Assembly: GCA_944322255.1 (NCBI GenBank)
Contig: CALUOK010000017.1
Span: 1-51,292, forward strand
DNA length: 51,292 nt
Direction: 5' to 3'
From: Candidatus Methanomethylophilaceae archaeon
GTDB taxonomy: Archaea; Thermoplasmatota; Thermoplasmata; Methanomassiliicoccales; Methanomethylophilaceae
Each line of letters begins with the position of its first letter. Within the stretch, counting starts at the first letter, position 1. The position numbers were made by a program, and so were the translations under genes. Of the stretch, positions 19,276 through 49,820 are shown in pieces. The notes beneath the pieces were generated by a model. That model saw only the letters and a program-made list of their open reading frames with translations. It made no database searches and was not told the origin of the DNA.

Positions 19276-19276
19276 A

Positions 19277-29289: not shown

Positions 29290-29904
29290 GTGTCCAGGAA
29301 ATCGTACACCCGGGAGGAGCGCGAGGCCATACGTGCCAGCATGCTCCGTCGCGCATCAGAGGTGTTCTCGTCGAAGGGGCTAAGGGACACCAGTCTGGAG
29401 GACGTGTACGTGCCGGAGGGCATATCCAAGACATTCTTCTACACGTTCTTCCCCTCGAAGATCGCGCTCATCACCGAGGTTTTCCGCACACAGTCCGTAG
29501 AGATCCTGGAAGCCGTGCGCAGCAGCGTGTGGGAGTACGGGTCCATGAACGGCATGAGAGAGGTGTTCGGGGAGGTCGTGGAAGGCAGATGGTACATCGC
29601 ATCCATCGACGACCAGGTCTACCTGAAGGCCATCATGAGCGACGAGGAGTTCAACGGTTTCAAGAACGACCGCATAGTCCTGTTCGCCGAGATCCTGAAC
29701 ATCCTCGGGGTCCCTGTCAGCAGACTCGACCCCCGCGTGTTCTACAATATGCTCATGTCGGTGGTCTGGACCGGCATGTCAGATTCGGGTTCCGTCCCCT
29801 TCCTCTACGGGGAGGTCTCCAAGGTGTCGACTGACATCCTGCTGGACCATCTGGTGGAATACGTCGGAGGGCTCAGGGTCGATTCGGGAAAGGACACGTT
29901 CTGA
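29290..29904 (+). CDS. TetR-family transcriptional regulator
   Basis: A 204-residue regulator starting at GTG. The N-terminal helix-turn-helix reads VFSSKGLRDTSLEDVYVPEG followed by ISKTFFYTFFPSK, the TetR pattern. The C-terminal helices would bind an inducer, not identifiable here. It is divergent from the DUF4143 ATPase across a region with repeated palindromic sites, so it probably controls that gene and itself. It is followed 6 bases later by an ankyrin gene, so it may also govern the start of the repeat-protein island. Confidence 0.87.
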   Translation: MSRKSYTREEREAIRASMLRRASEVFSSKGLRDTSLEDVYVPEGISKTFFYTFFPSKIALITEVFRTQSVEILEAVRSSVWEYGSMNGMREVFGEVVEGRWYIASIDDQVYLKAIMSDEEFNGFKNDRIVLFAEILNILGVPVSRLDPRVFYNMLMSVVWTGMSDSGSVPFLYGEVSKVSTDILLDHLVEYVGGLRVDSGKDTF

Positions 29905-29910
29905 GAAGGG

Positions 29911-31137
29911 ATGGAAATGGACAGGGAAAGGATCAGGCAGGTGGAGACCGACTTCTTTCAGGGCAGAATCGACCAGGCGGTGGAATCAGCGTTGGACATC
30001 ATCGCCTCGATGGACATGGACGATGACGACGACGCCCAGGCGGCATCGGACCTCATCATCAGGGCCGTGAGCTCGGAGAAGGCGATAGAGTTCATAGACG
30101 GGCTCAGGAACATCGGATTCGATTTCGGCATCAGGTTCCCCGACGGGGAGACGATGACCACGCTCTACGCCGCTAGAGGTCGGAGCGACCCCGAGGTCCT
30201 GGCCGCCTACGCCGAATCGGGCGCTGACCTGTTCTCGTGCAACCGCAACGGTTCCAACGCGCTCCATCTCCTGGCGTCCCTTGAGAAGTCCGCATGGGCA
30301 AAGGAACGCGAGACGGACATGGCCGCAGTCGCCAAGCTGCCCGATGACGTGTCGGGTTGGATGACATGCAACGCGTTCGGAGCCACCCCGTTTCACCTGG
30401 CGGTCATGAACGGGCACACGGAGCTCCTGTTGGCTCTTCTCGATTCCTCCGCCGATGCGAACATGACCGGGGCCGAGGTCCGCCAGGGATACGGCCACGC
30501 CATAGACTTCGACGGAGTCACCGCCCTCGACGTCGCGTGCCTCATCGGAGACGACGTCGCCGCGGGCATACTCATGGACCACGGTGCGGACCCCTCCATC
30601 ACGGACAACCACGGCCGCGTGGCGGCCCACTACGCCGTGTCTCCCCCTCCAGTCAGCGTCTGCCGGGAATGGGATTCGATCCCGGGGATGGAGGCCGTAG
30701 TCGGAAGGAAGAAGGCCATACTCTCCAGGGTCGGGGGCGTCGACTCCGTGGACGACACCGGCTCAACTCCGCTCATGATCACACTGACATCCTACAGGTA
30801 CCAGAACTGCGGGCTCTCCGAGGCGCTGATCGGCCTGGGTGCGGATCCCGGCATCGCCCGCAACGACGGGACAACACCGCTGATGGCCGCCGCCTCCAAC
30901 GGGCACACCGACGCGGTCAAGGCCCTTGTGGCCGCCGGAGCGGACCTGGACGCATGCGACCGCAACGGACGGACCGCCCTGCACCACGCCATATCCTGGA
31001 GGGACGAGAAGTCCGCCAGGCTCCTGGTGAAGAAGGGGGCCCGGTTCGACATCCCCGACAGGGACGGGAAGACCGCGGGGGAGATGGCCGCGTCCGCCGG
31101 GATGGAGTCGGTCATGGAGCTGATGGTCCGAGGCTGA
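29911..31137 (+). CDS. Ankyrin-repeat protein, 408 residues
   Basis: The first 80 residues are helical and acidic; ankyrin repeats follow to the end, for example NAFGATPFHLAVMNGHTELL and NDGTTPLMAAASNGHTDAVK. About eight repeats can be counted, the middle ones irregular. No signal or catalytic domain is seen. ATG codons occur at 29911 and 29917; GAGAAGGGA before the second would favour 29917. It lies 6 bases after TetR and 4 before the next gene, so the set is probably co-transcribed. Confidence 0.85.
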   Translation: MEMDRERIRQVETDFFQGRIDQAVESALDIIASMDMDDDDDAQAASDLIIRAVSSEKAIEFIDGLRNIGFDFGIRFPDGETMTTLYAARGRSDPEVLAAYAESGADLFSCNRNGSNALHLLASLEKSAWAKERETDMAAVAKLPDDVSGWMTCNAFGATPFHLAVMNGHTELLLALLDSSADANMTGAEVRQGYGHAIDFDGVTALDVACLIGDDVAAGILMDHGADPSITDNHGRVAAHYAVSPPPVSVCREWDSIPGMEAVVGRKKAILSRVGGVDSVDDTGSTPLMITLTSYRYQNCGLSEALIGLGADPGIARNDGTTPLMAAASNGHTDAVKALVAAGADLDACDRNGRTALHHAISWRDEKSARLLVKKGARFDIPDRDGKTAGEMAASAGMESVMELMVRG

Positions 31138-31141
31138 TAAC

Positions 31142-31600
31142 ATGGGTTTCCTCGACAACGGCAACGGATCGAAACCCGCGATAGACGGCTCCGTAGCGTA
31201 TCTCATGCTGGTGGCCGGGGACTTCCCGGGTGCCTGGGCCCTGCTGTCCGATGCGGACCTCTCGGCCACATCCGACGTCATCTACAACAAGGCGCTCTGC
31301 CTGAGGGCCGCGGGACGCAGCCAGGAGGCCCTGGAGCTCGCGTCTCTGGCTTTCCGCCGTCTCACCGAGGGGGTCCCCCAGAAGACCCTCGACCCGGTGA
31401 CCTCGGCCCTCGTCGCCTCCATGTTCGGCCCGGTCCCGATGGGTCCGGCCGTCCAGAGGGCGAACCCCACCTACGCCGGCATCCTGGCCAGGTGGCTGTA
31501 CTGCCTCTGCCTTTCAGACTGCGGGGAGCTGGAGGAGCTCTCCCGCGCCTCCGCGCCGCTGGAGCGGCTCGGGATCAAACCTGTTCCAGAGAAGGAGTGA
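31142..31600 (+). CDS. Small TPR-like protein, 152 residues
   Basis: Not a named family. Residues 20-70 read like a tetratricopeptide pair (YLMLVAGDFPGAWALL, IYNKALCLRAAGRSQEALEL) and residues 110-140 like another helix pair with Cys (RWLYCLCLSDCGELEELSRA). It sits between two ankyrin genes, 4 bases from each, so it is probably part of their complex or a chaperone for them. Confidence 0.65.
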   Translation: MGFLDNGNGSKPAIDGSVAYLMLVAGDFPGAWALLSDADLSATSDVIYNKALCLRAAGRSQEALELASLAFRRLTEGVPQKTLDPVTSALVASMFGPVPMGPAVQRANPTYAGILARWLYCLCLSDCGELEELSRASAPLERLGIKPVPEKE

Positions 31601-31604
31601 GGAT

Positions 31605-32591
31605 ATGTCTCAGATGGACAACATGTTTATCGACGCGTGCAAAAACGGACAGAAGGGTGTGGCCCAGACCCTCCTGGCGAAGGGGGACGTGGACGTCAAC
31701 AAGCGGGACGCCATGGGTTACACCGCCCTCCACTACGCCTGCCAGAAGGGGGCCCGCGACCTGGTCTCCCTGCTTCTTGGGAAGGGCGCGGACGCCTGCG
31801 CCTGCTCCAACGACAGCGTCACCCCCCTGCACATGTGCGCCCGCAACGGCAACAAGGACATCATACGTATGCTCGTCGAGGCCGGTGCCGATCTCAACGC
31901 CACGGACCGCAACGGCAGGACCCCGCTGATGGGCATGGCCTCGGAGGGGAAGGTCGACGCCGCGAAGATCCTCCTGGAGATGGGTGCGGACCCGTCGGTG
32001 GCAGACAACGACGGCCACACCGTCATGGACATCGCGACGTCCAAGGGCCTGAAGGGGCTCGTGACCTCCCTCAGCTCCTCGGACGGCGCCGCCGACAAGA
32101 GGGACTCCGTTGGCAACACCCCGCTCCACCAGGCGTGCTGGAACACCCAGGGTGAGGTGGTCCGCGTCCTGATCGAGAACGGTGCGGACGTCAACGCCCT
32201 CAACGACGACGGAGAGAGCGCGATATTCCTGGCCGTCCACAGAGGGGCCCTGAACATCGTTGAGATGCTCCTTGCCGCGGGTGCGGACGCCGACGCAACC
32301 CTCAACTCCGGCGACCGCCCCATGCACATCGCCGCGGCTGACGGCAACCAGTACATAGGCAGGGCGCTGATCGCTGTGGGAGCCGACGTCGATCCCAAGA
32401 ACGGCGCTGGGTCCACTCCTCTGATAGTGGCCGCCCGCAACGGGCGCAACGACTTCGTCTCCCTTCTCCTGGAGAGCGGGGCCTACCCCGATGCCGCGGA
32501 CAACGACGGCCGCACCGCAATGCACTACGCGTCCGAGGCGGGGTACACGGAGATCGTGGAGATGCTCCTCATGGCCGGAGCCAAGGGGTGA
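31605..32591 (+). CDS. Ankyrin-repeat protein, 328 residues
   Basis: An almost pure ankyrin solenoid of nine to ten 33-residue repeats with close fit to consensus, such as DAMGYTALHYACQKGARDLV and NDDGESAIFLAVHRGALNIV. It lacks any N-terminal extension. The regular repeats, compared with the degenerate ones of its neighbours, suggest recent expansion. It is the last gene of the TetR-led run and converges on the third ankyrin gene, 9 bases away. Confidence 0.9.
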   Translation: MSQMDNMFIDACKNGQKGVAQTLLAKGDVDVNKRDAMGYTALHYACQKGARDLVSLLLGKGADACACSNDSVTPLHMCARNGNKDIIRMLVEAGADLNATDRNGRTPLMGMASEGKVDAAKILLEMGADPSVADNDGHTVMDIATSKGLKGLVTSLSSSDGAADKRDSVGNTPLHQACWNTQGEVVRVLIENGADVNALNDDGESAIFLAVHRGALNIVEMLLAAGADADATLNSGDRPMHIAAADGNQYIGRALIAVGADVDPKNGAGSTPLIVAARNGRNDFVSLLLESGAYPDAADNDGRTAMHYASEAGYTEIVEMLLMAGAKG

Positions 32592-32600
32592 GCCCCGGCG

Positions 32601-34055
32601 TCACATCCAGTCCAGAATGAACGCCAGGACCCCGCGGCTGTCCGACGCGGCTGCGAGCTCCGCCGCGTCCCTTCCGTCGGAACCCCGTACGGAAAGGTCG
32701 GGCTCGCAGAAGTCGAAGATCGTCCTGATCAGGTCCAGCCCGCCGTCCCTTCCCAGGGACGCCGCGTGCATCACCGCTGTCATCCCGCTGCCGTCGACGG
32801 CATCGCAGTCAGCTCCCATCTCCATCAGCGTGCACACTATGTCCTCGGAGTCACGTCCCTCGACAGAGCAGGCACGGATGAGCGGCGTACGGCCCTCGCC
32901 GTCGCGGGACTCAATGTCAACACCCAGGGACACCAGGGTCTCGAACGTCAGTGTCCGGACGGATCTCCCGTTCGATGTGCCCCCCAGACGGTCGTTCCCG
33001 GCGACGAAGCAGAGTGCCGATCCCTCACGATCACCTACGGGGAGGTCGACGGAGCCCTGTGCTTCCACGACCCTTCTGAGCATCCCGATGTAGGTGTCCG
33101 AATCCCTCGGGTTACCGCCTGTTCCGACCAATGATGACAGGGACATGATGAGGTGGTACAGCGCGGTGTGGCCGCTGTCCCCTTCGGTGACGGTGGCGTC
33201 GGCACCCCCGTCCAGGAGGGCGAAGGCCGATTCCGAGGCCATCCTGCGGCAGGCTATCATCAGCGGCGTCCTGCCCCTGTACTCCCCTTCACGGTCGCAG
33301 AGGGCGTCCGGATCGGCTCCGGAGCCGATGATCGCCCTGACCGCCGCAGGGTCGTTCATGATCACAGCCTGGGACAGGTCCATGCCCCCGGATTCGACCG
33401 AGGTGTCGCCTGCGAGGAACGCGGAGGTGATCTTGATCCTGTTCTCCACTGCGAAGTCGACGGCCTTTTTCCCGATCTTGGTCTCCGCTTCCGGGTCCAG
33501 ACCGCATCCTATCAGCCACTCGGCCATCCTGCGGCACATCCTGTCCTCCCTCTCGAACAGCTCCGGGTCGTTCTCGAAGTGGAAGTCGTACCTGGAGGCG
33601 GAGCTGCACACCAGATGGAGCGCGTTCATCCCCGAGCTTTCCAGCAGTGCGTCGCAGCGGATGCGCCTCTGTCCTATCACGGCGATCATGGGGCAGTTGT
33701 GCAGGTCCGCGGCGATGTGGTAGAAGCACCTTCCGCTCTCGTCCCTGCGGGACGGGGGGCAGCGTGCGGCCAGGAGGATGTCGGTGCATTCGGCCATCTT
33801 GGAAACCCTGTCCTTCCAGTTCTGCACGGCAAGGATGTGCAGCGGCGTCCGCCCGTACTCGTCGGTGGCGCCGGCGCGGAAACCCCTCGACAGCAGGAGC
33901 TCCAGCACCTCGGGGTCAACGTGCTGCGCGGCGATGTGAACAGCAGTGATCCCGTGAGAACCGGTGTCGGAGGGATCCAGGGAGGCCGCCGCTGCAAGGG
34001 CCTTCTCCCTCGAGCCGCCGTAGCCGTAGGCCGATTCGAGGTCGTCCAGGCTCAT
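32601..34055 (-). CDS. Ankyrin-repeat protein, 484 residues
   Basis: Ankyrin repeats are spread along the whole length with irregular inserts: GITAVHIAAQHVDPEVLELL, EYGRTPLHILAVQNWKDRVS, GMTAVMHAASLGRDGGLDLI. It starts MSLDDLESAYGYGG at 34055, overlapping the stop of the DUF1266 gene (ATGA), rather than at an upstream ATG (34514) that would run through that gene. The overlap implies coupled synthesis of an ankyrin protein and a DUF1266 protein, a pairing known in bacteria. Confidence 0.85.
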   Translation of the reverse strand: MSLDDLESAYGYGGSREKALAAAASLDPSDTGSHGITAVHIAAQHVDPEVLELLLSRGFRAGATDEYGRTPLHILAVQNWKDRVSKMAECTDILLAARCPPSRRDESGRCFYHIAADLHNCPMIAVIGQRRIRCDALLESSGMNALHLVCSSASRYDFHFENDPELFEREDRMCRRMAEWLIGCGLDPEAETKIGKKAVDFAVENRIKITSAFLAGDTSVESGGMDLSQAVIMNDPAAVRAIIGSGADPDALCDREGEYRGRTPLMIACRRMASESAFALLDGGADATVTEGDSGHTALYHLIMSLSSLVGTGGNPRDSDTYIGMLRRVVEAQGSVDLPVGDREGSALCFVAGNDRLGGTSNGRSVRTLTFETLVSLGVDIESRDGEGRTPLIRACSVEGRDSEDIVCTLMEMGADCDAVDGSGMTAVMHAASLGRDGGLDLIRTIFDFCEPDLSVRGSDGRDAAELAAASDSRGVLAFILDWM

Positions 34056-35110
34056 GCTCTCCCGCTCGCCCAGGGGAAGTCCTTCCACTCGCCCTCGGTG
34101 AGGAGGTGCTCCACGGCGAACATCAGGCCGGCCATGTTCTCGAAGCAGGCCTCCGGACCGTAGGGGCACTTCCAGAACATGCTGCCGAAGATGTACGACT
34201 GGGCGTAGGGGACCCATCCGTCGAAGGCCTCCATGCAGCCGTCCGCAATCTGGTCGAGGATGCTCCATGCCTCGTCCTCGGAGAGGTACCCGAGGAAGTA
34301 TCCCCAGCGGGTTACGTTCGCCGCCCTTCCGAGATCCCAGCCCAGCAGCATGGCCGGGTCTACGCTGCCTGCGTACGCCTGGGCGAACGCGAACCTGGCG
34401 TCGGAGACAGCGACGTCCTCCTCGTCCATGTCCTCGGTGTGCAGGTCCTCCGCCGTGCCGGATCCGGATATGACCTCGAGGGCGTTGACGTAGTCTGCTG
34501 TGTGTCCTCCACACATGAGGTACTTGAGAACGTCGACCAGTTCCTCCCTGCTCTCCACGCCCCAGTAGTCGCGAAGGATCGCGTACACGACATCCCTGCT
34601 GTCCTGGTCCCTTGGCTCCACGTCGAGCCCGTCGAGAAGGTGGTCGTTAAGAGTGGATATGATGCCTGTGAGGAGGACCTCGAACCTCCTCATCCGAGCT
34701 GGATCCGCGGGAGCCGGCTGGGGTTCCCCGAGTTCAGAGATGGATGATATGGCCTCGACGATGTCCCCGTAGCCGAACTCCGAGGGGTCCTTGTCCCCGA
34801 GGATCCTCTCCGTGAGGCTGTCTCCTCCGTCTACTCCAAGGACCTGGCTCATCTCGTCGTCGCTGTATCCCAGCTGCTCCATGGCTATCCTGGCCTGCTC
34901 GGCGGGATCCACGTAGCCGCCGTCGGCCGCGGCACCCATCATCTGCCTGATCATCTCGATCTGCAGCTGCATGTTCTTGTCCAGCTGTTCGCAGAACTGC
35001 TCGGCCATGGCGGGGTCCGAGGCGTACATCTGGCGGTACATGTTCTTCTGCGTCTCCACCTGGGCCTTGATCATGTCGATCTGCATCTGGACGGGGTCCA
35101 TGTCTGTCAT
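34052..35110 (-). CDS. DUF1266-domain protein, 352 residues
   Basis: The C-terminal 110 residues carry the DUF1266 pattern: LGWDLGRAANVTRWGYFLGY, SEDEAWSILDQI and YAQSYIFGSMFWKCPYGPEA. The N-terminal 60 residues are Met/Gln-rich and helical, and the middle is an unassigned helical region. DUF1266 has no proven activity; it occurs in bacteria beside Sel1, ankyrin and immunity-type genes. The ATG at 35110 has a TATA box 24 bases upstream and the gene is divergent from the 1248-residue protein. Confidence 0.8.
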   Translation of the reverse strand: MTDMDPVQMQIDMIKAQVETQKNMYRQMYASDPAMAEQFCEQLDKNMQLQIEMIRQMMGAAADGGYVDPAEQARIAMEQLGYSDDEMSQVLGVDGGDSLTERILGDKDPSEFGYGDIVEAISSISELGEPQPAPADPARMRRFEVLLTGIISTLNDHLLDGLDVEPRDQDSRDVVYAILRDYWGVESREELVDVLKYLMCGGHTADYVNALEVISGSGTAEDLHTEDMDEEDVAVSDARFAFAQAYAGSVDPAMLLGWDLGRAANVTRWGYFLGYLSEDEAWSILDQIADGCMEAFDGWVPYAQSYIFGSMFWKCPYGPEACFENMAGLMFAVEHLLTEGEWKDFPWASGRA

Positions 35111-35133
35111 GATTCATGGATGGCCTAACAGCC

Positions 35134-35139
35134 ATATAA
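35134..35139 (-). promoter_or_regulatory. TATA box of the DUF1266-ankyrin operon
   Basis: TTATAT (minus strand), within TATTATATGG, is centred 26 bases before the ATG at 35110. Confidence 0.6.
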
Positions 35140-35177
35140 TACTTACATACCTTATTGAATGATTCGTCTTTATTCAA

Positions 35178-35191
35178 AACCACATGTGGTT
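35178..35191. promoter_or_regulatory. 14-bp perfect palindrome between divergent genes
   Basis: AACCACATGTGGTT is fully self-complementary and is flanked by TTCA and GAA, which lengthen the symmetry. It lies between the promoters of the DUF1266 and 1248-residue genes in an AT-rich 232-bp gap and could be an operator for both. Confidence 0.55.
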
Positions 35192-35342
35192 GAAACTCGG
35201 AGATGTACAAACCAAAACAGTGATGATTTGCCATCTGGGCATCAGAATATACCTCCTAATGTGCGAGTATGCATGAATTAATGATAAAGACTAATCGAAA
35301 CTAAACGTATTTATCTGTTGCAGGTGATGTCGAACCGATCCC

Positions 35343-38300
35343 ATGGACGCAGACGACCGCCGCCTCCTGTACAGAACCGAATACGACCTCCTGACCCTCG
35401 AGAGGAGACAGAGCCTGCTGGAAAGGGTCGGGGAGGAGAACGGGATGGCCCTCCTGGGCTTCCGCAGGTTCGAGAGATGGGGTGTCTACACCTACACGGC
35501 GATGTACTCCCGTGATGGCGAGGTGTATCTGTTCGTGCCCGGGGACGAGGTCACCCTGGGATGGAGCGGGGAGTACGGCGAGATCGACCCCACAACCAGG
35601 TCGAACATCCGCATGGACCTGGAGGAGAGGGGCTGCAGGGACCCGGAGGAGATAATCCGCAGGCTCATGACGCCGGAGAGGAGGGTCAGGATCCCACCGA
35701 TGCTGGTCCAGATGTCCGCGGCCCCCTTCGAGGGTACCTATGCAAAGGCCGTGGAGGCCATGGGCGATTCGTTACCGACATCCGACGAATGGGAGTACCT
35801 CTGCGGCGGCGGACTCAACACCCTGTTCCGGTGGGGCGACAGGTTCGACTTCAGCATGGGGCTCGACCACTACACCGACAGTCCCGACGGCCCTTGTCCC
35901 CTGAGGGAGCCCAACTTCTTCGGCCTGCTGATAGCCACAGACCCCTTCCTGGCGGAGGCCGTCCGTGCGGACGAGCCCACGTTCAGGGGCGGGGACATGG
36001 GAGGACACATCCTCACAGGGTACAGGCCGGTCATAGGCTACCTGTCCTGCTCCCCGCACTTCAAACCGATCAACAAGGGGCCGGACGGGAAGGAGCCGAC
36101 CCGTTTCCTGTGCAGGAGGGTGGTGCGTCTCGACACCCTGGAACAGCTCCCGGTGGAGCAGGACGAGGAAGCGCCCGGACCGGTCGCATGCGAGGAGGCG
36201 GAGCCCGGACCGGAGACGGTGTTCAGCGACAGCCGCCCGTTCCCGAAGGACTACGTGTTCTGCGCATCCATCGTCGACGAACCGGATGTCCCGGACTCCT
36301 TCACAGTCAGGGCCCAGAACCTGTTCAGGGGACTAATATACTGGATCCCGGCGGGCGAGTGGACCTACGCCGAGATTGCCGAGCAGCTCCGGTCCAGGGC
36401 GGACCGCATCGCCTCCATACAGGATGATATCGGGTTCCATATGACCCCCGCGGTCATCGAATCGGTGAGGGGGACCTTCGATGACATCCTGCGGTTCTAC
36501 GGGATCTCCATCGATTCCGACTCCTTCCTCGACGACCCGGTCTGGCATGTGGGTGAGCAGGTGCAGGAGGACGACCGCAACGGCGATCTCCTGGCGCAGT
36601 GCGACGTTTGGCACGAGTCGGGTCAGCACGAGAGGATCGTGCAGGCCATCGAGTCGCTTCCGGAGTCCAGACTGACCCCGGCCATCGTCAGCGTCCTGGC
36701 CCGGGCCTACAACAACCTCGGCGGCCCGGACGACCTGGCGCCCTGCCGCAGGGCGTTGGGACTCCTGGAATCCGTCCGTGACAGCCTGGGAGACGACGCC
36801 TTGTGGAACTACCGCATGGCATACTCCTACTGGATGATGGACCGGGAGCCCGACGCCGTCCCGTATCTTCAGAGGGCCGTGGAGCTGGACCCGGAGGACG
36901 GTGATTTCGCGGAGCTCCTGGAGCTGTGTGTCGATTCGCTGGACCTGCCCTCCTTCCGCAGATGCTTCAGGGAGCGCGCCGGTGCTGCATGGGCCAGGTT
37001 CCTCGAGGCGACGCCCGACATACTGAGGCTGTTGGAGCATCCCGACAGGGAGTCCGTATCCGAGGAGGTGGTGGGCACCGTGGAGGGGATCGTAAGTCGG
37101 GTCCTGGACGGCGTCGCCTTCGAGATCGGCTACAACGACGGCTCCCCCGAACTGGTCCTGAGCCCCGAGGCGGACCGTGTGAGGCTGTTCGAGATCCATG
37201 AGTTTGTAAGACGTGCTCCACTCGAGGTCACATCCATCTGGACCATCCGCGAGGGCCACGTCCTCAGAGGCGAGTACCAGCTGCGCCATGACGGCGTCTC
37301 CGTGGACGCGTCTGACATCGACGTGCTGGTGGAGAGACACGGGGAGCGCGTGGCACTGACGCTCCACTGTCCCAAGCTGGCCGGACTCATGTCGCAAGAC
37401 GAGGACAGGGTCTGGTGGATGGTGTCAAGCATAATGGAGCACACCCTGGGCGAGACTGTGTGCATGACCATCCTGGACGGCATAGAGGTGGTGCCGGAAC
37501 CGCTCGTCGGCGAGGTCGTGAGGCTCTCGAATCTTGGGGCAGTCCTCATGGACATGGGGTTCAACATGTCGATTGACGCGGAGGGAGTCCTCTCGGATAC
37601 GATCGTGTACAGCCTCAACCCGTTCAGTGACCCGGAAGCCGACTGGAGGCTCGACGTGCACTCCGGTTCCTCCAGGTGCGCGCCACTTGTCAACGGCTAT
37701 CTTCACATGGAGCACGGTGCCATGGACGTCCTGCACAGGGACGGGGCGGTGGCCGGGTTCCTGGCGTACCCGCTCGACTCCTTCGACTGCGACGACCGCG
37801 CCGCGAGGATCATGGCGTTCCGCGAACAGGTCGAGTCCGCCATCCTCGAAGACGTCGGAAGGGATGCGGTGGAGTTCATCGGAGGGGCCACGGGCCTGTA
37901 CCGCGGATATGTGGACCTCATCGCCTGGGACATCGGTGCGGTGATCGAATCGGCGAAGAGGTTCTTCAGGGACTCCGAGGTCCAATGGGCCGGGTTCCAC
38001 ACCTTCCGCAGGGGTCCCGCATCGGTGATGCTGGCGGACAGGAGGGATTTCGTACCCTCGGAGTCGTCCATCCTCACCCGGGAGGACGTCGACAGGTTCG
38101 GATCCTACCTGGGGGAGGTCGACGGCAGCTTCGGAGCGATGCTGAAGGACCTGATCGACACACTCAACAGGGGGCTGAGCGAGGGCAGGTTCGACCGCAG
38201 GCAGGTCGAGGCCGACCTGGAGGTCGCGCTCTGGTACTCCTACGCCTGCCTGAACATGGGGGACTACGTCCACTACTGGCAGGCCGCGCAGTGGATGCCG

Positions 38301-40650: not shown

Positions 40651-40672
40651 GGCGGTCGTCCATCCTATCTGC

Positions 40673-41314: not shown

Positions 41315-41372
41315 CCCTCGCCGATTCTGGACGGGGGACAGGTTAACATCGGATGACGTTTTCCGGGTGGTC

Positions 41373-43154
41373 ATGGTGTTCGAGGATTCCGGAAAGCAGG
41401 TCGATTCGCTCCTAGGCGAGGAGCAGGTGGAGGTCATCAGGTCCTTCATGGATGAAAACACCACGAACTGCGGGGCCATGCTCGAGTACATCGGGGGCTT
41501 CATCGCCAAGGGGATCTCCGAGGGCAGGTTCACCGAACGCCAGGCCCATCACGACCTGGGCATAGCCCTCTGGGTCGCCTACGCCTGCAACAACATGGAC
41601 GACTACGAGCACTACTACACCGCGGCCGAATGGCTCTCCCGCGTGGAGGACCTGGCCTCCGGCTGCGGGGTATGGTACTACAGGTACGCCAACGCCCTGA
41701 TGTACTGCGGCAAGCCCTCCCGCGCCCTGGAGTACTGCGAGAGGGGCATAAGGGAGGATCCGGACTACCCGTGGACCTGGCTCACCCTCGGCAGGCTCAG
41801 GTCCCACTTCGGCGACAGGCGCGGCGCGGAGGAGGCAGTCTCGAAGGGCCTCGACCTCGTCCCCGGGGACCACGAGTTCCTGACCCTCCGCGACGACATA
41901 GCCAGGGGAGCCACCATCGAGGAGATGGAGATGCACTACATCGACCCCGGCTCCGACGCCGACCTGAGGGGTCTGGATCAGGACGACCCCGAGTACGCCC
42001 TGAAGAGGCTGGCGATAGACGGAATCGTCTGCGACAGGCCCGCCCTGGAGAAGATGAAGTCGGCTCTGGGGATCTCGGGGTGGTCGGCCGACCATCCGTA
42101 CTGCACGTTCCTCATGGACCGTGGATCCGGTTCGGTGATGGTCACGCTGATGATGAGCGAGGCCCAGATCTCCAAGCGCGACCCCGAGGGAATCGCCCGC
42201 ATCCTGGACAGCCTCGACCATCTCGACTCCGAGGCCAGTGAGAGCCTGCAGCAGTCCTCCGGATTGTCCGACCGCACCCTCTACGGTTTGAGCATCGGCC
42301 CGTTCATGAACGTGAAGCTCTCCTACACCAGACCCGGCTCGGAGGAGGTGGAGACCGTCGACTTCGACAGCGACCTGGACATGGTCGAGAGGACATCCGG
42401 CGGACCGTTCGCCGCCATCGTCCTGTTCTCGTCCGACGAATGGGACCCGGAGATCGTGGTCTCCGGCCTCAGGTCCGAATGGGGGATAGACCTCGGCGAC
42501 GCGGAGATCGGCGGGGACACGATGATCGCCACAGTCGGAGGGGACATCGTGGCCGTCAGCCTGATCCGCAGCCGCGTCCCCGGGGAGGAGGCGGAGGAGA
42601 ACGCGTCCAACAACTACCTCTGGCCCGGAGCGGTCGATGCGGCGAGGTCCCACAGGGCCCATCTTGTGGTGGCATTGGTGAACCACGGCGGGGACCCCCT
42701 CGACTGCGGGCTCACCTTCACCAAGCTCCTGACGTCCTGCGCCAGGCTCCCCAACGCGGTCGGCGTCTACCACTGCGGAACGGTGTTCGAGCCTTCGGCA
42801 TACGTCGACAGCGCCCAGGCGATGAAGAACGGGGAGTTGCCGCTGGAGGACATGGTGTGGTTCGGCATGTACCGCACCTCGGAGGGCATCAACGCCTACA
42901 CCGTGGGAATGACCTTCTACGGCAGGGACGAGATGGAGGTCATCGCGGCGAAGGACCAGCCTGTCAGGGTCGCCGCGTTCCTGTACGACGTCGCCTACCA
43001 TGTACTATATAACGGCACTTGTCTCAGGGACGGGGACACAATCGGATTCTCCGAGGACCAGGTTCTGACGGTCCGCAAAAGCCCCGGCGTCTCCGTCGAC
43101 GGACAGACACTGAAGATCGAGTATCCTGATTCCGACGGAAACGGTCCCGAATGA
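41373..43154 (+). CDS. TPR plus DUF4261 protein, 593 residues
   Basis: Residues 1-330 form a helical TPR-like unit that is a clear paralogue of the C-terminus of the 1248-residue protein: both have LASGCGVWYYRYANALMYCG-type sequence, YPW(T/I)WL, VPGD(H/Y)EF and IDPG(S/A)DA. Residues 350-590 are DUF4261: NNYLWPGAVDAARSHRAHLV, NAVGVYHCGTVFEP and GDTIGFSEDQ match the family. DUF4261 occurs in bacterial immunity-type and secretion-associated loci; its activity is unknown. The ATG at 41373 is used with TTAACA 27 bases before it. Confidence 0.83.
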   Translation: MVFEDSGKQVDSLLGEEQVEVIRSFMDENTTNCGAMLEYIGGFIAKGISEGRFTERQAHHDLGIALWVAYACNNMDDYEHYYTAAEWLSRVEDLASGCGVWYYRYANALMYCGKPSRALEYCERGIREDPDYPWTWLTLGRLRSHFGDRRGAEEAVSKGLDLVPGDHEFLTLRDDIARGATIEEMEMHYIDPGSDADLRGLDQDDPEYALKRLAIDGIVCDRPALEKMKSALGISGWSADHPYCTFLMDRGSGSVMVTLMMSEAQISKRDPEGIARILDSLDHLDSEASESLQQSSGLSDRTLYGLSIGPFMNVKLSYTRPGSEEVETVDFDSDLDMVERTSGGPFAAIVLFSSDEWDPEIVVSGLRSEWGIDLGDAEIGGDTMIATVGGDIVAVSLIRSRVPGEEAEENASNNYLWPGAVDAARSHRAHLVVALVNHGGDPLDCGLTFTKLLTSCARLPNAVGVYHCGTVFEPSAYVDSAQAMKNGELPLEDMVWFGMYRTSEGINAYTVGMTFYGRDEMEVIAAKDQPVRVAAFLYDVAYHVLYNGTCLRDGDTIGFSEDQVLTVRKSPGVSVDGQTLKIEYPDSDGNGPE

Positions 43155-43214: not shown

Positions 43215-43238
43215 CGGATGTCGGGATTCCATCAACCC

Positions 43239-44738
43239 ATGACATCAGTCAAAGCAGCCGCAGCCATAGCCGTGGTCGCCGTGATCGTCATCGCAGTAGG
43301 TGCGTACGCCTTACTGAACAATAGCGGCGGCAACGGCTCCGACTCTCCTGTAGATGCCATAGGGACAGACGTGCAGGTGAACGACTACTACACGCTGTCT
43401 TCAGTTTACTCTTCAGGACAGGCCTATCTGGGAGCAGACAACACAACCACATACCAGGTCTCCGCAGTCGATGGAGACCAGCTCACCGTCACAGTCAAGC
43501 CGAGCAACGGGACGGAATATAACGAGACCATGACCAAGGACGAGTACCTGGACGATGTCAGCGTGATCAGCCAGGACTACATCGGTCAGTACCAGAGGAA
43601 CGAGACCATAAGCACCGGCCTCGGAAACGTCGAGTGCATGATCTACTTCGACGAGCAGCCTGTGGGCAACAACACCATCGTCTATACATACGACTGGATA
43701 GGGGTCGGTAGCAACGTGATCTACAAGACAGAGATCACCGTCTCCTCCGGAACCACCAACGAGACGTTCACCACCACCCTCGCCGGTACCAATATGATCG
43801 ACAAGGGTGTCTCGGGCGACGGCAGCTACATCCCCGACAAGCCCGCATCCTCCGGCGACGGACTCAGGACTGACATCGTCGAGGGCGACTATATCCAGTA
43901 CATCAAGTACGATGACGACGACCGCGACATGGAGACGTACACCGTGGTCAGGGTCGATGGGGACAGGATTCTCGTCAGGGAGAACGGAGATGACGACGTG
44001 GAGTACATGTCCAAGGCCGACTTCCTCAAGCTTGTCAAGTACGACGGTTCAGGACGCCAGATCGGCACCGAGACCATCGACACCCAGTTCGGTACAAAGA
44101 ACTGCACCGTGTACACGTACCGCATATTCGACGACCTCATCGACGTCGACGATGGTGCTGTCGTCTGGGTCTCCGACGACGACCAGACCATCTACAAGCT
44201 GGAGAGCCTGGATGACTACTACGACCATGACGACTGGGACGACAGGTTCGACAGGGAGTCCTACTACCTTGCCGGTACCTCGCTGATGAACGCCAGTGCG
44301 GGGGGAGGCTCCGATCCGACACCCTCTCCCTCTGACAACAGATTCGGCATCGAGGTCAATGTGGGTGACTACTACATCATCAACGACGATGACGATCGCG
44401 ACACCGAGAGGTACGAAGTGATCGCCATCGACGGCAACCGTGTCACCGTCATGGAGGATGATGGAAGGTACGACAAGGAGATCGAGAGGATGTCCATCAA
44501 CGAGTTCCTCGGCAAGATCATGATCACCTCCGAGCAACTCGAATCCAGGTACGACCCCACCGGTGACACCAACACAGTCAACGGCATCACCTGTCAGGTC
44601 TATCAGGAGCGCCACGATGACGACCGCGAGAGAATCAGCGTCCAGCAGATCGGCGGTTCCAACTACATCGTCTGGGAGAAGCAGGAGGAGTGGGACGACA
44701 GGGAGACCCTGATCGAGTACCACATCGCCTCTCTTTGA
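43239..44738 (+). CDS. Membrane-anchored acidic protein with three homologous repeats
   Basis: A 499-residue protein starting MTSVKAAAAIAVVAVIVIAV, a signal anchor at residues 4-26, so the rest lies outside the cell. Three domains of 125-145 residues follow (about 44-187, 212-350 and 372-499). Each opens like V(N/G)DYY(x)n and goes on with Y-V-(x)-V-DGD-(x)-V. The second and third have Asp clusters (YDDDDRDMET, NDDDDRDTER) that could bind Ca2+. Many Asn-x-Thr/Ser sites suggest N-glycosylation. The family is not recognised; it may be a surface adhesin or cell-wall component. Confidence 0.72.
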   Translation: MTSVKAAAAIAVVAVIVIAVGAYALLNNSGGNGSDSPVDAIGTDVQVNDYYTLSSVYSSGQAYLGADNTTTYQVSAVDGDQLTVTVKPSNGTEYNETMTKDEYLDDVSVISQDYIGQYQRNETISTGLGNVECMIYFDEQPVGNNTIVYTYDWIGVGSNVIYKTEITVSSGTTNETFTTTLAGTNMIDKGVSGDGSYIPDKPASSGDGLRTDIVEGDYIQYIKYDDDDRDMETYTVVRVDGDRILVRENGDDDVEYMSKADFLKLVKYDGSGRQIGTETIDTQFGTKNCTVYTYRIFDDLIDVDDGAVVWVSDDDQTIYKLESLDDYYDHDDWDDRFDRESYYLAGTSLMNASAGGGSDPTPSPSDNRFGIEVNVGDYYIINDDDDRDTERYEVIAIDGNRVTVMEDDGRYDKEIERMSINEFLGKIMITSEQLESRYDPTGDTNTVNGITCQVYQERHDDDRERISVQQIGGSNYIVWEKQEEWDDRETLIEYHIASL

Positions 44739-44827
44739 ACCCCCTTACGTCCCTTCGGGGACGGCCCCACCATTTCTCCGAAACGACTCTGGAAACGCCA
44801 TTATAACCGGAGCGCGGATACCGTACC

Positions 44828-46087
44828 ATGTTCTGCAGATTCTGCGGCCGCGAACTGGATGACGACTCGTCGTTCTGTCCCGGATGCGGGCAGCCTGTCA
44901 ATCCCACGGAACGTCGTCCTCCGGGCCGTTCAGGACGCGACCTCGGCCGCAGCGGCGTCATAGGGTTCCTGGCCATCATCGGTCTTGCCGTTGTGGCTGT
45001 GGCTCTCGTGTTCGCCATGGGTGCCCTGTCCTTCGAAGACGACGACTCCATGAGGATCAGCGACGATGTCACGGTCTCCGGTGCCCTCGCCGACGGCACG
45101 GTGACAGTCACAGACCTCGGATACGGCATCGAGTTCTACTACAACGACTTCGAATCCGGACAGTGGTCCTACATCTGGCGCATCCGTGGTGACGACGGGG
45201 CCGTGCAGGATTGGAACACCTACAGCCCGAGACTCCTACTCGACAAGGACGACATCAGACCCGGACACTACGATTTCGGAGTGGCGTCAACCGGCAGTTC
45301 GGCAGAGGGAGGATTCACCCTTTACGGAACGGTCGAAGACACCTTCGAATGGAGATACGGCGGTACCCTACATTCGATCTCCGTGTCATACGAGTACTCT
45401 GAGTTCGAGTCTGCCTCTGACAACATCATCTTCCAGACCCGCGGTTCCCCTGAGGCGAGGATCGACAGGCTCACTGCACCGAGCGACACCGTCTCCCAGC
45501 TGGAGAGCAGCCTCAGGTCGGAGTATCTGAGAGTCAACGGCGCCGATGCACCGGTCGACGGCCAGGACTACGCGGACTTCATTCTGGCGTTCGTCCAGGT
45601 CTGCTTCGACTACGAGCTGGATGCGGATCTGTACGGTTACGAGGAGTACTGGGCTTTCCCCATAGAGACCTTGTACCTCCGCTGCGGCGACTGCGAGGAC
45701 ACGGCCATCCTGTGCGCCGCGCTTTACGGTGCCGCCGGGTTCGACGCAGGGGTCTTCCTGGTGCCGGGGCACGCCTTCACTGCAATCTCACTGGATTCCT
45801 ACGACGAGCCCCCGTTCTGGGGCCAGTCTGTCGGATACCACATCTTCACATACACCTATGATGGAAAGTCGTATCTGGGCTGCGAGACCACGTTCGACGA
45901 ACACGTCCCTGTCGGGGTCATATCCAGGGACTACACCGTTTCCGAGGACGGGACGTTCCTCTATCAGGGCGAACCGGGGACATCCCAGGACGGACTGTAC
46001 CTGGTCGGGGATGGATCCGACACCAGGGGCAAGATGTTTTCAATGCAGAACCGGTTGGGAGGTCAAGGAGTCATGATAGCTGAATGA
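44828..46087 (+). CDS. Zinc-ribbon, membrane-anchored transglutaminase-like protein
   Basis: A 419-residue protein of three parts. Residues 1-22 are a zinc ribbon (Cys3, Cys6, Cys17, Cys20). Residues 43-66 form a transmembrane helix, so the ribbon is inside and the rest outside. After a beta-rich region of 160 residues comes a transglutaminase-like domain with Cys289 in CGDCEDTAIL and His315 in PGHAFTA; the third residue is not certain. It may cleave or cross-link peptides at the cell surface. It follows the exported repeat protein by 89 bases, and that protein is a candidate substrate. Confidence 0.82.
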   Translation: MFCRFCGRELDDDSSFCPGCGQPVNPTERRPPGRSGRDLGRSGVIGFLAIIGLAVVAVALVFAMGALSFEDDDSMRISDDVTVSGALADGTVTVTDLGYGIEFYYNDFESGQWSYIWRIRGDDGAVQDWNTYSPRLLLDKDDIRPGHYDFGVASTGSSAEGGFTLYGTVEDTFEWRYGGTLHSISVSYEYSEFESASDNIIFQTRGSPEARIDRLTAPSDTVSQLESSLRSEYLRVNGADAPVDGQDYADFILAFVQVCFDYELDADLYGYEEYWAFPIETLYLRCGDCEDTAILCAALYGAAGFDAGVFLVPGHAFTAISLDSYDEPPFWGQSVGYHIFTYTYDGKSYLGCETTFDEHVPVGVISRDYTVSEDGTFLYQGEPGTSQDGLYLVGDGSDTRGKMFSMQNRLGGQGVMIAE

Positions 46088-46141
46088 CAACTATTTACAA
46101 TGAAAGTAGATTAAGTCATCAGCTTTACTAATAAAGATACC

Positions 46142-46534
46142 ATGAAACAGACCATCACCAGAGCCGAACTGGCCCTGAAGTTCAGGCAGGGTATCGAGAG
46201 GAAGGAGGCGGAGAAGCAGGCGTTCCTCCTCAAAGCGTTCGAGTACCCGGAGAAGGGTGCCATCTATTCCGAGATAGTCGACTACCTGGAGTACGAGATC
46301 AGGTACTACACTGTTGGAGCGGCGTACTACGAGGACAGGATAGACAGCCTCGACTCAGAGGAGAACGACAACCTTCTGTACCTCACCAGGCTCAGCGAGC
46401 CCTCCCCCCGCGCCTACGCCCAGTACCTGAGGGAGATCGACCCCTCAGCCAGGGCCGATGAGAAGATCACGCATTCCTGCCTGAAGGAACTCAAGTCCGC
46501 TATTGCGAAGGTCATGGAGAGCGGCATGGTATGA
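46142..46534 (+). CDS. Hypothetical helical protein, 130 residues
   Basis: Not recognised. It is entirely helical, with Lys/Glu-rich and Tyr-rich stretches (YLEYEIRYYTVGAAYYEDRI), and has no membrane segment. An AT-rich leader with CTTTACTAATAAAG before the ATG may hold the promoter. The stop overlaps the next start (ATGA at 46531), so it is almost certainly expressed with the 254-residue protein. Confidence 0.65.
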   Translation: MKQTITRAELALKFRQGIERKEAEKQAFLLKAFEYPEKGAIYSEIVDYLEYEIRYYTVGAAYYEDRIDSLDSEENDNLLYLTRLSEPSPRAYAQYLREIDPSARADEKITHSCLKELKSAIAKVMESGMV

Positions 46535-47295
46535 TCTACGACCGCGAGGACATCGAGATTCTCAAGCGCGTCATGATGCGCAAGGGCGTCGAGACCGCCG
46601 CAATCTCTGCCAATCCCAACCTGTCCGAGGCCCAGCGCATGATGGTCTCTGACGAGCTGGTTCGCGACATAGCGAGATGCCAGCTGATGATCTGCATCGG
46701 GAACAACGACTTCTCCGACATCGTCAGGCAGCTGGAGGGCTTCGACGAGGACCTCTCCGCTCTTCCGCCGTCGATATACTCCGCGTACATGGAGGCCATG
46801 ACCCCCACCGAGAGGGAGGACGAGGGCCAGTACATATGGATGCTGGCCGCCCTGATGTCCAACACCTACCTGCTGCGCAAGGGGCTGGAGCTGACCCACG
46901 CCCTGTCCACAGCCGAGCACGTCCTGAAGCCCTCCGAGGTCCGTCTGACCATCGCTATCCGCGATGAAATGCGCGAGATCGTCGGCAGGTGCGAGGCCCT
47001 GGAGGGGGAAGCAATCGGCCCGCTGCAGTACGCCAGGGCGGTTGCCGACGAGTGCTCCCTTCTGCTGCGCATAGACTCCGGGAAGGAGGCCGGCAGCCGC
47101 GAGATCTCCGATGTCATGCACCGCGTCTCCATCGTCGACGGCGAGGAGTTCGAACGCACCTTCGCCATGGACATCGGCCCCATACACATGGAGTTCGTGT
47201 CCATGCTTGTGGAACCCCGCGGCCATTACCTGTCCATCCTATGCGCCAGATGCATCCTGAACTCGTTCATGGAGCGAGGCCGTCCGCTTTTATAA
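46531..47295 (+). CDS. Hypothetical helical protein, 254 residues
   Basis: Not recognised. Helical throughout, with conserved-looking segments LSEAQRMMVSDELVRDIARC and MCIGNN-like QLMICIGNNDFSDIVRQLEG; no signal, membrane segment or catalytic motif is seen. It is the only gene in the window that ends in TAA. It starts inside the previous gene by ATGA. The following coiled-coil gene begins 26 bases later with its own TATA-like sequence (CTTTTATAAG at about 47287-47296, sharing the stop). Confidence 0.65.
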   Translation: MIYDREDIEILKRVMMRKGVETAAISANPNLSEAQRMMVSDELVRDIARCQLMICIGNNDFSDIVRQLEGFDEDLSALPPSIYSAYMEAMTPTEREDEGQYIWMLAALMSNTYLLRKGLELTHALSTAEHVLKPSEVRLTIAIRDEMREIVGRCEALEGEAIGPLQYARAVADECSLLLRIDSGKEAGSREISDVMHRVSIVDGEEFERTFAMDIGPIHMEFVSMLVEPRGHYLSILCARCILNSFMERGRPLL

Positions 47296-47320
47296 GAACT
47301 GGAATGACCATCACTCCCTC

Positions 47321-48640
47321 ATGTGGGATGCAGACCTCGTTTCGAGGGTAAGGGACAGGAAACTGAACGAGATCATGATCTTCGCCTCCATGGCCAAGAT
47401 CGACAGTCAGAACATCGACGGTTACATAGACATCATTGTCAGCCTGGGCGACGACATCGACGCCTGCGACACACTTCTGGACACCGACGGCGAGACCGAG
47501 ATCGCCCTGGAGGCCATCGACGCGCCGGAGTACCTGGACAGGCTCTCCCCCGGGGAGAGGTCCGACGAGGACGCCTTCAATGCCATGAAGGTCAGCCCGT
47601 ACTGCGAGGAGGCCGTGCCCGAGGACATCGAGGACTACGTCAGGCAGCTTATCAGCGACGCCGTCCAGTCCCTGAAGGACGACGACGGGAGCAGGGACGC
47701 CCTGGATGCTTTGAAGCAGGAGCTGGCCATGGTCAGGAACAGGAACGAGGAGCTCTCCAAGGACCTGGACTTCCGCATGACCGAGAACGCCTCCCTCTCC
47801 GACGAGCTCAAGTCCGTCCAGTCCGAGAGGGACGAGCTCCAGGCCCAGGTCGACAGCCTGAAGGCAAAGATCGGAGAGATGGAATCCTCGCTCTCGCAGC
47901 TAGACGCCATGTCCGAGGACCTTTCAAAGGCCAATGAGCAGGTGGCCGTCCTCACAGGGGAGGTGGGGAGGCTCCAGGACGAGCTCTCCAAGCGCGACTC
48001 CGAGATCGCCGCCGTTGAGACGGAGATGGACGCTGCCGTCGAGGAGAACACCGAGCTCAGCAGCGAGGTGGAGGCCCTGAAGGACGAGATTGCGGAGGCC
48101 GAGGTTGAGGAGATCGCCGAGGAGATCCTGGAGGAGGCCGCAACCGAGGAGCCCGCAGCAGCCGTAGAGGAACCCCCTGAGGTCCCGGAGCCGGAACCGC
48201 AGGTCGCCGAGGAAGCGACGGTTCCCGCTGAGGAGTCCGCTCACGATGAGAGTCCGGCGGTGGACAGGATCCTCACCGACGCGCAGAGGGACATAGTGGA
48301 GGCAGCCAAAAGGATGAAGGACTCCAAGATGGACGAGTTCATCGACCTGTCGCTGGCCGGGAAGGTGGACGAGAACGTCTGCGACAACATCATCAGCTTC
48401 CTGAAGGTGGACGTCAGCATCTGCGACGCGCTCCTGGGCATGGATTACACCGACATGGACAGCATCCTGAACGGTTTCAGGACGATACTCTCCATCATCG
48501 ACGACGCCCCCGAGCCTCACAGCCAGTCGGTCTACACCAACTCCCTGACCCCCGAGCAGTCCGTCGTGGAGTACGGCTACAACAAGGTCATCGAGCACAT
48601 CCAGGATGTCATGCTCCGCAGGTACGCGAACCTGCTCTGA
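47321..48640 (+). CDS. Coiled-coil protein flanked by two copies of one helical domain
   Basis: A 439-residue protein. Residues 14-60 (NEIMIFASMAKIDSQNIDGY then IDIIVSLGDDIDACDTLL) and 335-380 (MDEFIDLSLAGKVDENVCDN then IISFLKVDVSICDALL) are copies of one helical unit. Between them are a coiled coil at about 120-255 (LKQELAMVRNRNEELSKDLD) and a Glu/Pro/Ala-rich linker at 265-310. This is a dumbbell that could dimerise or join partners. It is cytoplasmic. The family is unknown. Confidence 0.68.
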   Translation: MWDADLVSRVRDRKLNEIMIFASMAKIDSQNIDGYIDIIVSLGDDIDACDTLLDTDGETEIALEAIDAPEYLDRLSPGERSDEDAFNAMKVSPYCEEAVPEDIEDYVRQLISDAVQSLKDDDGSRDALDALKQELAMVRNRNEELSKDLDFRMTENASLSDELKSVQSERDELQAQVDSLKAKIGEMESSLSQLDAMSEDLSKANEQVAVLTGEVGRLQDELSKRDSEIAAVETEMDAAVEENTELSSEVEALKDEIAEAEVEEIAEEILEEAATEEPAAAVEEPPEVPEPEPQVAEEATVPAEESAHDESPAVDRILTDAQRDIVEAAKRMKDSKMDEFIDLSLAGKVDENVCDNIISFLKVDVSICDALLGMDYTDMDSILNGFRTILSIIDDAPEPHSQSVYTNSLTPEQSVVEYGYNKVIEHIQDVMLRRYANLL

Positions 48641-49279
48641 TCAGATGAAACCCAGAACATCCCCGGGCGTCTCCGCGAAAGGAATGTTGTTGTCGCGGCA
48701 GACCTCGGGGGTGAAACCGTATCCGAACGTCACCGCCAGGAACCTCGTACCGCTATCGCGCGCCCCGACAAGGTCGTTGGCGGTGTCGCCGACCATCAGC
48801 GTGTTCTCCGGAACCGTTCCCGCTGCGTAGACGCATCTGTCGATGAGGGCCGATTTGCTCAGTGTTCCGAAGCCGTCGGCGCCGCAGACGTCTACGAAGA
48901 GGTCGGCTAGGCCCCAGTGGACCACGAGCTGCTTAGCGTACTCGTCCAGCTTCATGGTGGCCACACCCAAGGCGATCCCGCGGTTGTGTATCTCGCGGAG
49001 CACATCCTCCATGCCGGGGAAGAGCTCTGCATGAAGGTACCCCTCGCGTCCGTAGTGGTCGCGGAAGATCCCAGCAGCCTTCAGGGCGTCGTCCATGTCG
49101 AGGCCGTAGATGCGGGCCATGTTGTCGATCAGGGATCCTCCCATGTTCATGTATAGGGATTCCAGCGGAGGCTCGGGGACGCCGAGCTGATGGGCCACCT
49201 CTATGAAGGATGCGATAATGCCCGGCGAGGTGTCGGCGAGCGTGCCGTCCATGTCGAATACCACGAGCTCCGTGACCAT
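48641..49279 (-). CDS. HAD-superfamily phosphatase (phosphoglycolate phosphatase-like)
   Basis: A 212-residue HAD hydrolase. Motif I is FDMDGTLADT near the start, motif II the T of VATMKL, motif III the Lys of TLSKS and motif IV VGDTANDLVGA. An alpha-helical cap (residues 15-90) places it with the Gph/PGMB-like phosphatases. The substrate may be phosphoglycolate or another small phosphate ester. The ATG at 49279 has a TATA-like TATCTAAT 24 bases upstream; the longer frame to 49522 overlaps the divergent gene. It is convergent with the coiled-coil gene. Confidence 0.86.
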   Translation of the reverse strand: MVTELVVFDMDGTLADTSPGIIASFIEVAHQLGVPEPPLESLYMNMGGSLIDNMARIYGLDMDDALKAAGIFRDHYGREGYLHAELFPGMEDVLREIHNRGIALGVATMKLDEYAKQLVVHWGLADLFVDVCGADGFGTLSKSALIDRCVYAAGTVPENTLMVGDTANDLVGARDSGTRFLAVTFGYGFTPEVCRDNNIPFAETPGDVLGFI

Positions 49280-49298
49280 GCATCCGGGATGTGGGCGG

Positions 49299-49306
49299 AT
49301 TAGATA
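49299..49306 (-). promoter_or_regulatory. TATA-like box of the HAD phosphatase gene
   Basis: TATCTAAT on the minus strand is centred 24 bases before the ATG at 49279, in a 73-bp divergent gap. Confidence 0.45.
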
Positions 49307-49352
49307 ATCATGGCGACGGGCATAGCAAATACGACAACTGGGATTCGCAGGC

Positions 49353-49820
49353 ATGAGAGAGGTCTCCTGCGACATCGGCGAACCCCAGATACTCTTCGAC
49401 GATGCGGTCTGCCGCATGTTCGAGGATCCGGACGGGGAGTACGAGGTCCTGGACAGGAACATGAACAACGACCCCTTCGAACCGGACATAGTGGTCATGG
49501 ATTCGGACGAATGGGTGTTCACGGTTCTGTGCTATTACATCGAGGACTATCCGTCGGACGGATTCGTGGAGATCTACCCTAAGACCTTCGGCATGCGCAA
49601 GTGGGTGCGGGACGATTCCGATAGGCCGGCCTTCCTTGCGCTCGGTGTAGGCGGCACTCCGGAGAACCCGGAGGAGCTCTACTTCGCCCGTTTCTACAAC
49701 TTCGGAGACAGTCTCCTGAACCTCGACGACCTGAAGCCGTTCAGGATCAACTGGATGCGCCCGGCCTTCTTCGACAAGGTCGTGCGCGAGGATTTCGAGA
49801 GGATCTTCAGCCCGCGCTGA
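49353..49820 (+). CDS. Hypothetical acidic protein, 155 residues
   Basis: Not recognised. It is strongly acidic, with Asp/Trp/Phe-rich segments (VMDSDEWVFTVLCYYIEDYP, LYFARFYNFGDSLLNLDDLK) that suggest a compact alpha/beta fold like immunity proteins of the SUKH/Imm type in character, but I cannot match a family. It is divergent from the HAD gene and is the last convincing gene before the AT-rich gap. Confidence 0.6.
   Translation: MREVSCDIGEPQILFDDAVCRMFEDPDGEYEVLDRNMNNDPFEPDIVVMDSDEWVFTVLCYYIEDYPSDGFVEIYPKTFGMRKWVRDDSDRPAFLALGVGGTPENPEELYFARFYNFGDSLLNLDDLKPFRINWMRPAFFDKVVREDFERIFSPR

Follow-up and report, generated by a model that had tools for sequence, protein, structure and literature searches.

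An ankyrin and TPR gene island in a Methanomethylophilaceae archaeon with apparent kinship to bacterial polyimmunity arrays

Can a gut methanogen carry a gene array akin to those conferring immunity to toxins in bacteria? This question is raised by contig CALUOK010000017.1 (assembly GCA_944322255.1) of a Candidatus Methanomethylophilaceae archaeon, whose family belongs to the Methanomassiliicoccales within the Thermoplasmatota. The whole contig (C17; 51,292 nucleotides, referred to as the window) was analyzed; it stems from a genome of 1.88 Mb in 31 contigs that is 96% complete and is coded G000 here, with relatives coded G004 to G147 and genomic loci by L numbers. Polymorphic toxin/immunity systems have been described as missing, by and large, from most archaea, apart from rare cases in methanoarchaea and haloarchaea (PMC3482391). 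In bacteria, polyimmunity loci are arrays of immunity genes without intervening toxin genes, with short intergenic gaps, the same orientation and variable content, several of them bearing a XerC/D-type recombinase (PMC3482391). An earlier note had suspected an island of repeat proteins resembling such immunity-type arrays at 29290-49820, and this suspicion was a good one, because homology and regulation tie every core gene to bacterial immunity arrays, gene C weakly, as far as can be judged from sequence. With somewhat better than even confidence, we consider the core (29290-39089) together with genes I and J (40637-43154) to be an inducible gene set related to bacterial polyimmunity arrays and acquired by horizontal transfer, the proteins of which would neutralize toxins.

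The core is led by a gene for a TetR-family regulator (tetR, 29290-29904, plus strand, 204 amino acids (aa)), as read before, with a TetR_N match at 1.9e-5 (domain calls on window genes refer to Pfam profiles). It heads operon 1, continuing on the same strand at gaps of 4-6 bp with ankyrin protein B (29911-31137, 408 aa), small protein C (31142-31600, 152 aa) and ankyrin protein D (31605-32591, 328 aa). On the opposite strand, the genes for ankyrin protein E (32601-34055, 484 aa) and DUF1266 protein F (34052-35110, 352 aa, match at 1.2e-30) share the predicted ATGA overlap of 4 nt (34052-34055), a spacing kept in the sister species G014 and G023. All three ankyrin assignments hold, with Ank_2 matches of 1e-50, 4e-81 and 1e-29 for B, D and E, respectively. 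In sister species G015, the ankyrin E gene is found in two frames (L057:3349-4845) and is possibly decaying. Divergent from F, on the plus strand, is the gene for the modular giant G (35343-39089, 1248 aa), comprising a weakly FGE-like head (residues 1-300), a TPR module (416-905) and a second TPR module (906-1240), which is common to J. Three plus-strand genes follow, encoding TPR protein H (39706-40623, 305 aa), orphan protein I (40637-41314, 225 aa), with distant relatives in a Subdoligranulum array and at the G147 locus, and protein J (41367-43154, 595 aa), in which TPRs precede a C-terminal DUF4261 domain (2e-18). TPR profiles match G, H and J and, marginally, C, in keeping with the several TPR-like proteins of the earlier note; H is not island-specific. 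Between G and H, an open reading frame of 146 aa (39076-39516, minus strand) gives sub-threshold RecG-C and Fic-like C-terminal domain matches and is probably a gene remnant.

The three promoters of the core, those of tetR-B-C-D, F-E and G, carry one common operator-like inverted repeat, namely TAAGTAT-N15-GTCTTTA 22 bp upstream of tetR (29239-29267), TAAAGAC-N15-GTATGTA 33 bp upstream of F (35144-35172, minus strand) and TAAAGAC-N15-GTATTTA 29 bp upstream of G (35285-35313, plus strand), so that the variant TAAAGAC-N15-GTNTNTA flanks both sides of the divergent F|G intergenic region. A plain search of the promoters for perfect palindromes had returned nothing shared, and the split repeat emerged from comparing tetR upstream regions. 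The form TTAAAGAC-N15-GTCTTTAA is perfect upstream of tetR in G014; with varying arms, TTAAAGAC-N13-15-GTCTTTAA stands 22-24 bp ahead of the tetR start in four island species and two second loci, and in G020 the repeat lies 25 bp before a tetR recovered by tblastn. Scoring of 101 intergenic regions gave only tetR or F|G regions among the top ten, a test that is not fully independent, the motif having been defined on part of the tested promoters and the species being related. Eight genomes were searched allowing up to one mismatch, and the exact matches were without exception at the tetR or F|G regions of G000, G014, G015 and G020; the island-less control genomes G007, G018 and G024 had no exact match. 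With three mismatches permitted, the window by itself yields 9 matches against 9.06 expected by chance, the exact ones being the two F|G sites. Since exact matches in the eight genomes occur nowhere but at the tetR and F|G promoters, the core behaves as one TetR regulon with a putative operator, and TetR would be expected to bind to these repeats. Further upstream, the palindrome TCAGATTTTCTGA occurs four times at an exact spacing of 32 bp (29079-29187; 0.06 expected by chance) in the interval separating tetR from a gene for a DUF4143 AAA ATPase (27596-29053) that has no counterpart in any sister locus; this array is absent from 123 comparison loci.

The protein families of the island are, by their homologues, of bacterial type. 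For J, bacterial proteins 40-50% identical are found, and over the TPR module homologues from Bacillota, Bacteroidales, Deferribacterales and Sutterella reach 37-55% identity. In a tree of this module with 27 rows, at least two changes between bacteria and archaea are required, and the archaeal J-type and G-type groups are separate, each beside Bacillota. Among gut bacteria, fusions of the same module with SUFU, DUF7832 and Imm33 exist in Bacillota, Bacteroidales and Deferribacterales; among sister archaea, it is joined to SUFU, DUF7832 and Imm33 beside DUF4241 in G023 and to DUF4261, DUF7832 and DUF4253 in G014. Archaeon UBA71 encodes an 1852-aa protein combining it with Imm68, Imm33, DUF4261, SUFU, DUF7832 and DUF4253, the gene being 80% DNA-identical over 2.8 kb to that of a 2065-aa Subdoligranulum plasmid protein. 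At the head of the locus encoding this 1852-aa protein is a TetR with 51% identity to that of the window, and the locus bears the same operator; a paralogue of the window tetR heads the Imm68/Imm33/SUFU locus in G147 and G014. The UBA71 locus (L116:13725-19283, L117) and the Subdoligranulum variabile plasmid OY725843 (L128) have DNA in common at 67-92% identity, with up to 95% identity between proteins. The plasmid array additionally holds SUKH domains, Imm51, DUF4241, DUF1963, an FGE-like protein and the relative of gene I. This sharing of a polyimmunity array suggests recent interdomain transfer. The UBA71 contig might in principle be a contaminant; against this, it is 243 kb long and the complete G014 genome has the same locus at 75%.

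Regarding the ankyrin and DUF1266 genes, D is 51% identical over its full length to a Bacteroides finegoldii plasmid protein, most other ankyrin pairings being at 24-32%. On this plasmid (NZ_OY725934), a TetR gene is followed by a 1685-aa Imm5 giant, three small genes, an E-like and a D-like ankyrin gene and two DUF1266 genes, and the array extends to a SUKH-like gene just below the cut-off, PoNi and Imm5/YezG. In Fusobacterium vincentii, a C-like, E-like and D-like trio (D 49% identical, full length) occurs in fixed order; homologues of E adjoin a D homologue in both bacteria; protein C weakly profile-matches the 161-162 aa gene preceding the ankyrin pair in both. Here the main rival comes in, which the earlier note had also named as a scaffold: Ank-Ank-DUF1266, with or without C, might be a self-standing scaffold or stress complex, conserved across phyla and merely travelling in mobile arrays without neutralizing toxins. 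The fixed gene order, found in Fusobacterium without immunity neighbors as well as in Bacteroides, speaks for such a complex, as do the E-F ATGA coupling with equal spacing in G014 and G023, the slow evolution of D and the in-frame fusion of B and C in species G020 (L035:13746-15464), where proteins N and O of the downstream layer are likewise fused, which suggests physical partners. Against it, the array around the Bacteroides genes includes Imm5 and PoNi, control by the archaeal TetR/operator family extends to the Imm68/Imm33/SUFU proteins, and in archaeon G029 of the related family f6 (L038:9662-12442) DUF1266 adjoins a GAD-like/Tdi1 immunity gene of the type VI secretion system (T6SS) in the order TetR-DUF1266-Tdi1, with a TetR 28% identical to that of the window. 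The conserved complex stays alive as an unlikely explanation. In a bolder form of the defense idea, the TetR-controlled C/Ank/Ank/DUF1266 set would be an unrecognized inducible multi-protein module common to Fusobacteria, Bacteroides and methanogens, a complex sensing or shielding many contact-delivered toxins, for which we see a limited chance, roughly a quarter of the way to certainty. In G029, an operator-like ATAAGAAC-N15-GTTTTTAT with weak score was seen 23 bp upstream of tetR.

Returning to the relationship with polyimmunity arrays, its likeness as claimed by the earlier note is borne out by homology, neighborhood and regulation (the Bacteroides and Subdoligranulum arrays, the archaeal Imm68/Imm33/SUFU proteins and TetR-DUF1266-Tdi1) and not by domain models, as the proposed hidden Markov model comparison of window genes with immunity models gave no Imm, SUKH or SUFU match at E<1. 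What the window does have are ankyrins, for which an Imm-Ank class exists, and DUF1266/DUF4261, and recognized immunity families are present in sister loci without any in the window. Together with the partial dependence of the operator test, this lack weighs against the proposed relationship and function, and so do several further results: a toxin target was not identified; the Fusobacterium trio is surrounded by metabolic genes; several bacterial J homologues are lone genes in housekeeping neighborhoods; D is conserved at 82%, compared with 73-88% for housekeeping genes and unlike fast-evolving immunity genes; and a structure search of the PDB with AlphaFold models of J (mean predicted local distance difference test score 79) and of G 1-905 (66, the head being poorly predicted) returned TPR matches and no fold for DUF4261 or the G domains. 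A sequence search of the PDB with DUF1266 gave no match, and in the literature on DUF1266 and DUF4261 no function is described. That visible toxins are missing was confirmed: Pfam reveals no toxin domain in the island genes, and RHS repeats are absent genome-wide, other toxin families not having been searched at that scale. Among 41 genomes, 40 were free of RHS toxins, Methanosarcina acetivorans being positive as control. A XerC/D-type recombinase, an optional feature of polyimmunity loci, was not found among the Pfam-scanned island genes.

The distribution of the locus is patchy and limited to a subclade, as the immunity idea predicts. The same-order block occurs in G014, G015, G023 and G020, each with a tetR homologue at the locus, and partially in G004, G021 and UBA71, the last among the named Methanomethylophilaceae metagenome-assembled genomes that hold it; content differs among close relatives by species-level gene gain, loss and fusion. 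The site itself is fixed on the chromosome, beside the genus-core gene H (present in 21 of 25 searched genomes of the genus), and the island was accreted there in one subclade. In island-less members for which this site was read (G007, G018, G024, G013, G012, G005 and others), H, 9194 and the genes for the kinase-GNAT (23672) and the XPD-type helicase (10283) lie near one another. According to a tree of the two anchor genes, the layer of J, N and O can be explained by one gain in a subclade of nine species (the G008 contig ends there); the set from tetR to G is found in a four-species clade plus G020, indicating either a single gain followed by losses or a second transfer. A single recent mobile insertion was rejected, the block being vertically stable in the subclade and lying beside core genes in rearranged order. 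Across the phylum, DUF4261 was found in 6 and Imm33 in 4 of 390 genomes. Between the window and G014, nonsynonymous divergence is lower than synonymous divergence (dN<dS) for 14 of 14 compared island genes, with finite ratios of about 0.1 to 0.55, and one gene with saturated dS shows pN<pS; by these values, the island genes are evidently under purifying selection. With conserved block order, dN<dS and a specific shared operator, the island is confirmed to be more than a chance assembly.

A patchy distribution would also suit an anti-phage defense island, and candidate ankyrin models of PADLOC match B and E; moreover, certain conflict systems include FGE-like and TPR proteins. The PADLOC matches reflect only generic ankyrin similarity, the core has no defense effector (nuclease, NTPase or TIR), and wherever relatives have named domains, these indicate toxin immunity, which makes this explanation very improbable. 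Even fainter is the prospect of "eukaryote-like" repeat proteins serving adhesion or partner interaction: ANK, TPR and Sel1 repeats are counted among the adhesion-type factors of Methanomassiliicoccales (PMC7883539) and Sel1 genes lie nearby (18319-20899), but the relatives are immunity-array proteins and an evident N-terminal hydrophobic segment was not seen by eye in the core proteins, no signal-peptide predictor having been run. The Sel1-like repeat genes, three in number, stand beside the anchor genes and have paralogues between the anchors in other species.

Giant G had been described as FGE-like, which does not fit a mainly TPR modular protein whose match to PF03781 stays below the Pfam cut-off (16.5 versus 23.3 bits); an assignment as FGE/sulfatase-modifying factor was consequently rejected. 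Against the FGE profile, E is 0.041 for the whole protein and 0.007 for the N-terminal 300 aa, three of five homologues matching as well, and a motif pattern of LPTSDEWEYLCGGG, WGD and RGGD is kept in five homologues, so that an FGE-like character of the head is plausible. The G014 orthologue ends with an extra DUF4241 domain.

The assumption of a single island is valid up to 43154, the remaining 43218-49820 forming a distinct accessory layer (K-Q) of a membrane protein, a zinc-ribbon/transglutaminase-like protein, an overlapping pair of 130 and 254 aa, a coiled-coil protein, a HAD phosphatase (minus strand) and a 155-aa orphan, in which no immunity homology was found. The zinc-ribbon, membrane, transglutaminase-like protein (44828-46087) occurs in no sister locus. 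The 254-aa and 439-aa neighbors N and O (46531-48640), one protein in G020, seem to have a common repeated helical domain around a coiled coil.

If the core and genes I and J indeed form a polyimmunity relative, a TetR repressor might sit on the putative operators, overlapping the TATA-like stretch that lies 22-33 bp ahead of the start codons, until a stress or ligand signal releases it. The cytoplasmic ankyrin, TPR, DUF1266 and DUF4261 proteins could then bind and block toxins delivered by neighboring gut bacteria or, alternatively, help other proteins survive them. By analogy, multi-module giant G may be a multi-valent binder, a role proposed for polyimmunity proteins, and, like orphan or acquired immunity arrays, the island would not have retained the cognate toxin gene. 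A gut methanogen genus would thus hold immunity-array genes, in one sister species with up to 92% DNA identity to a plasmid of a Firmicute, with an apparent dedicated archaeal operator. The island's kinship with gut-bacterial toxin-survival arrays suggests passage of such arrays from bacteria to archaea, which may need the same toxin protection as gut bacteria. Functional genes would mean that bacteria deliver toxins acting on archaea, or that archaea meet the same toxins, and would offer a testable gene set plus regulator; DUF1266, DUF4261, DUF4241 and the TPR module would become tied to immunity. Should the multi-protein module exist, gut methanogens would take part in bacterial toxin warfare with arms acquired across domains.

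Among known systems, the T6SS immunity protein Tdi1 and acquired interbacterial defense genes (PMC10470768, PMC12247911) are approached through the TetR-DUF1266-Tdi1 order in the same-order archaeon G029, whereas the window holds no Tdi1 and no toxin is known for its proteins. The B. finegoldii array shares an orthologue-like D, an E-like ankyrin, DUF1266, the TetR head and a multi-domain giant, but is plasmid-borne, has recognized immunity domains and bears a TetR only 22% identical to that of the window. With the S. variabile array, the window has in common an FGE-like protein, DUF4261, DUF4241, a TPR-module giant and the gene I relative, besides the DNA identity of that array to a sister archaeon's second locus (up to 92%); in contrast, the plasmid array is a one-strand operon without a close D or E orthologue and has SUKH, Imm51 and DUF1963. 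Polyimmunity loci in general (Zhang et al., 2012; PMC3482391) are resembled in the relatives' domain pool (Imm33, Imm68, SUFU, SUKH, ankyrin), giant multi-domain proteins, a toxin-free array, content varying between relatives and the gut setting. Unlike them, the window lacks a recognized Imm, SUKH or SUFU domain and a recombinase among island genes, has genes on both strands, a dedicated TetR with a shared putative operator and an archaeal host. Without a recognized immunity domain, it is therefore not filed as a polyimmunity locus and is better called a TetR-controlled archaeal variant apparently derived from such loci.

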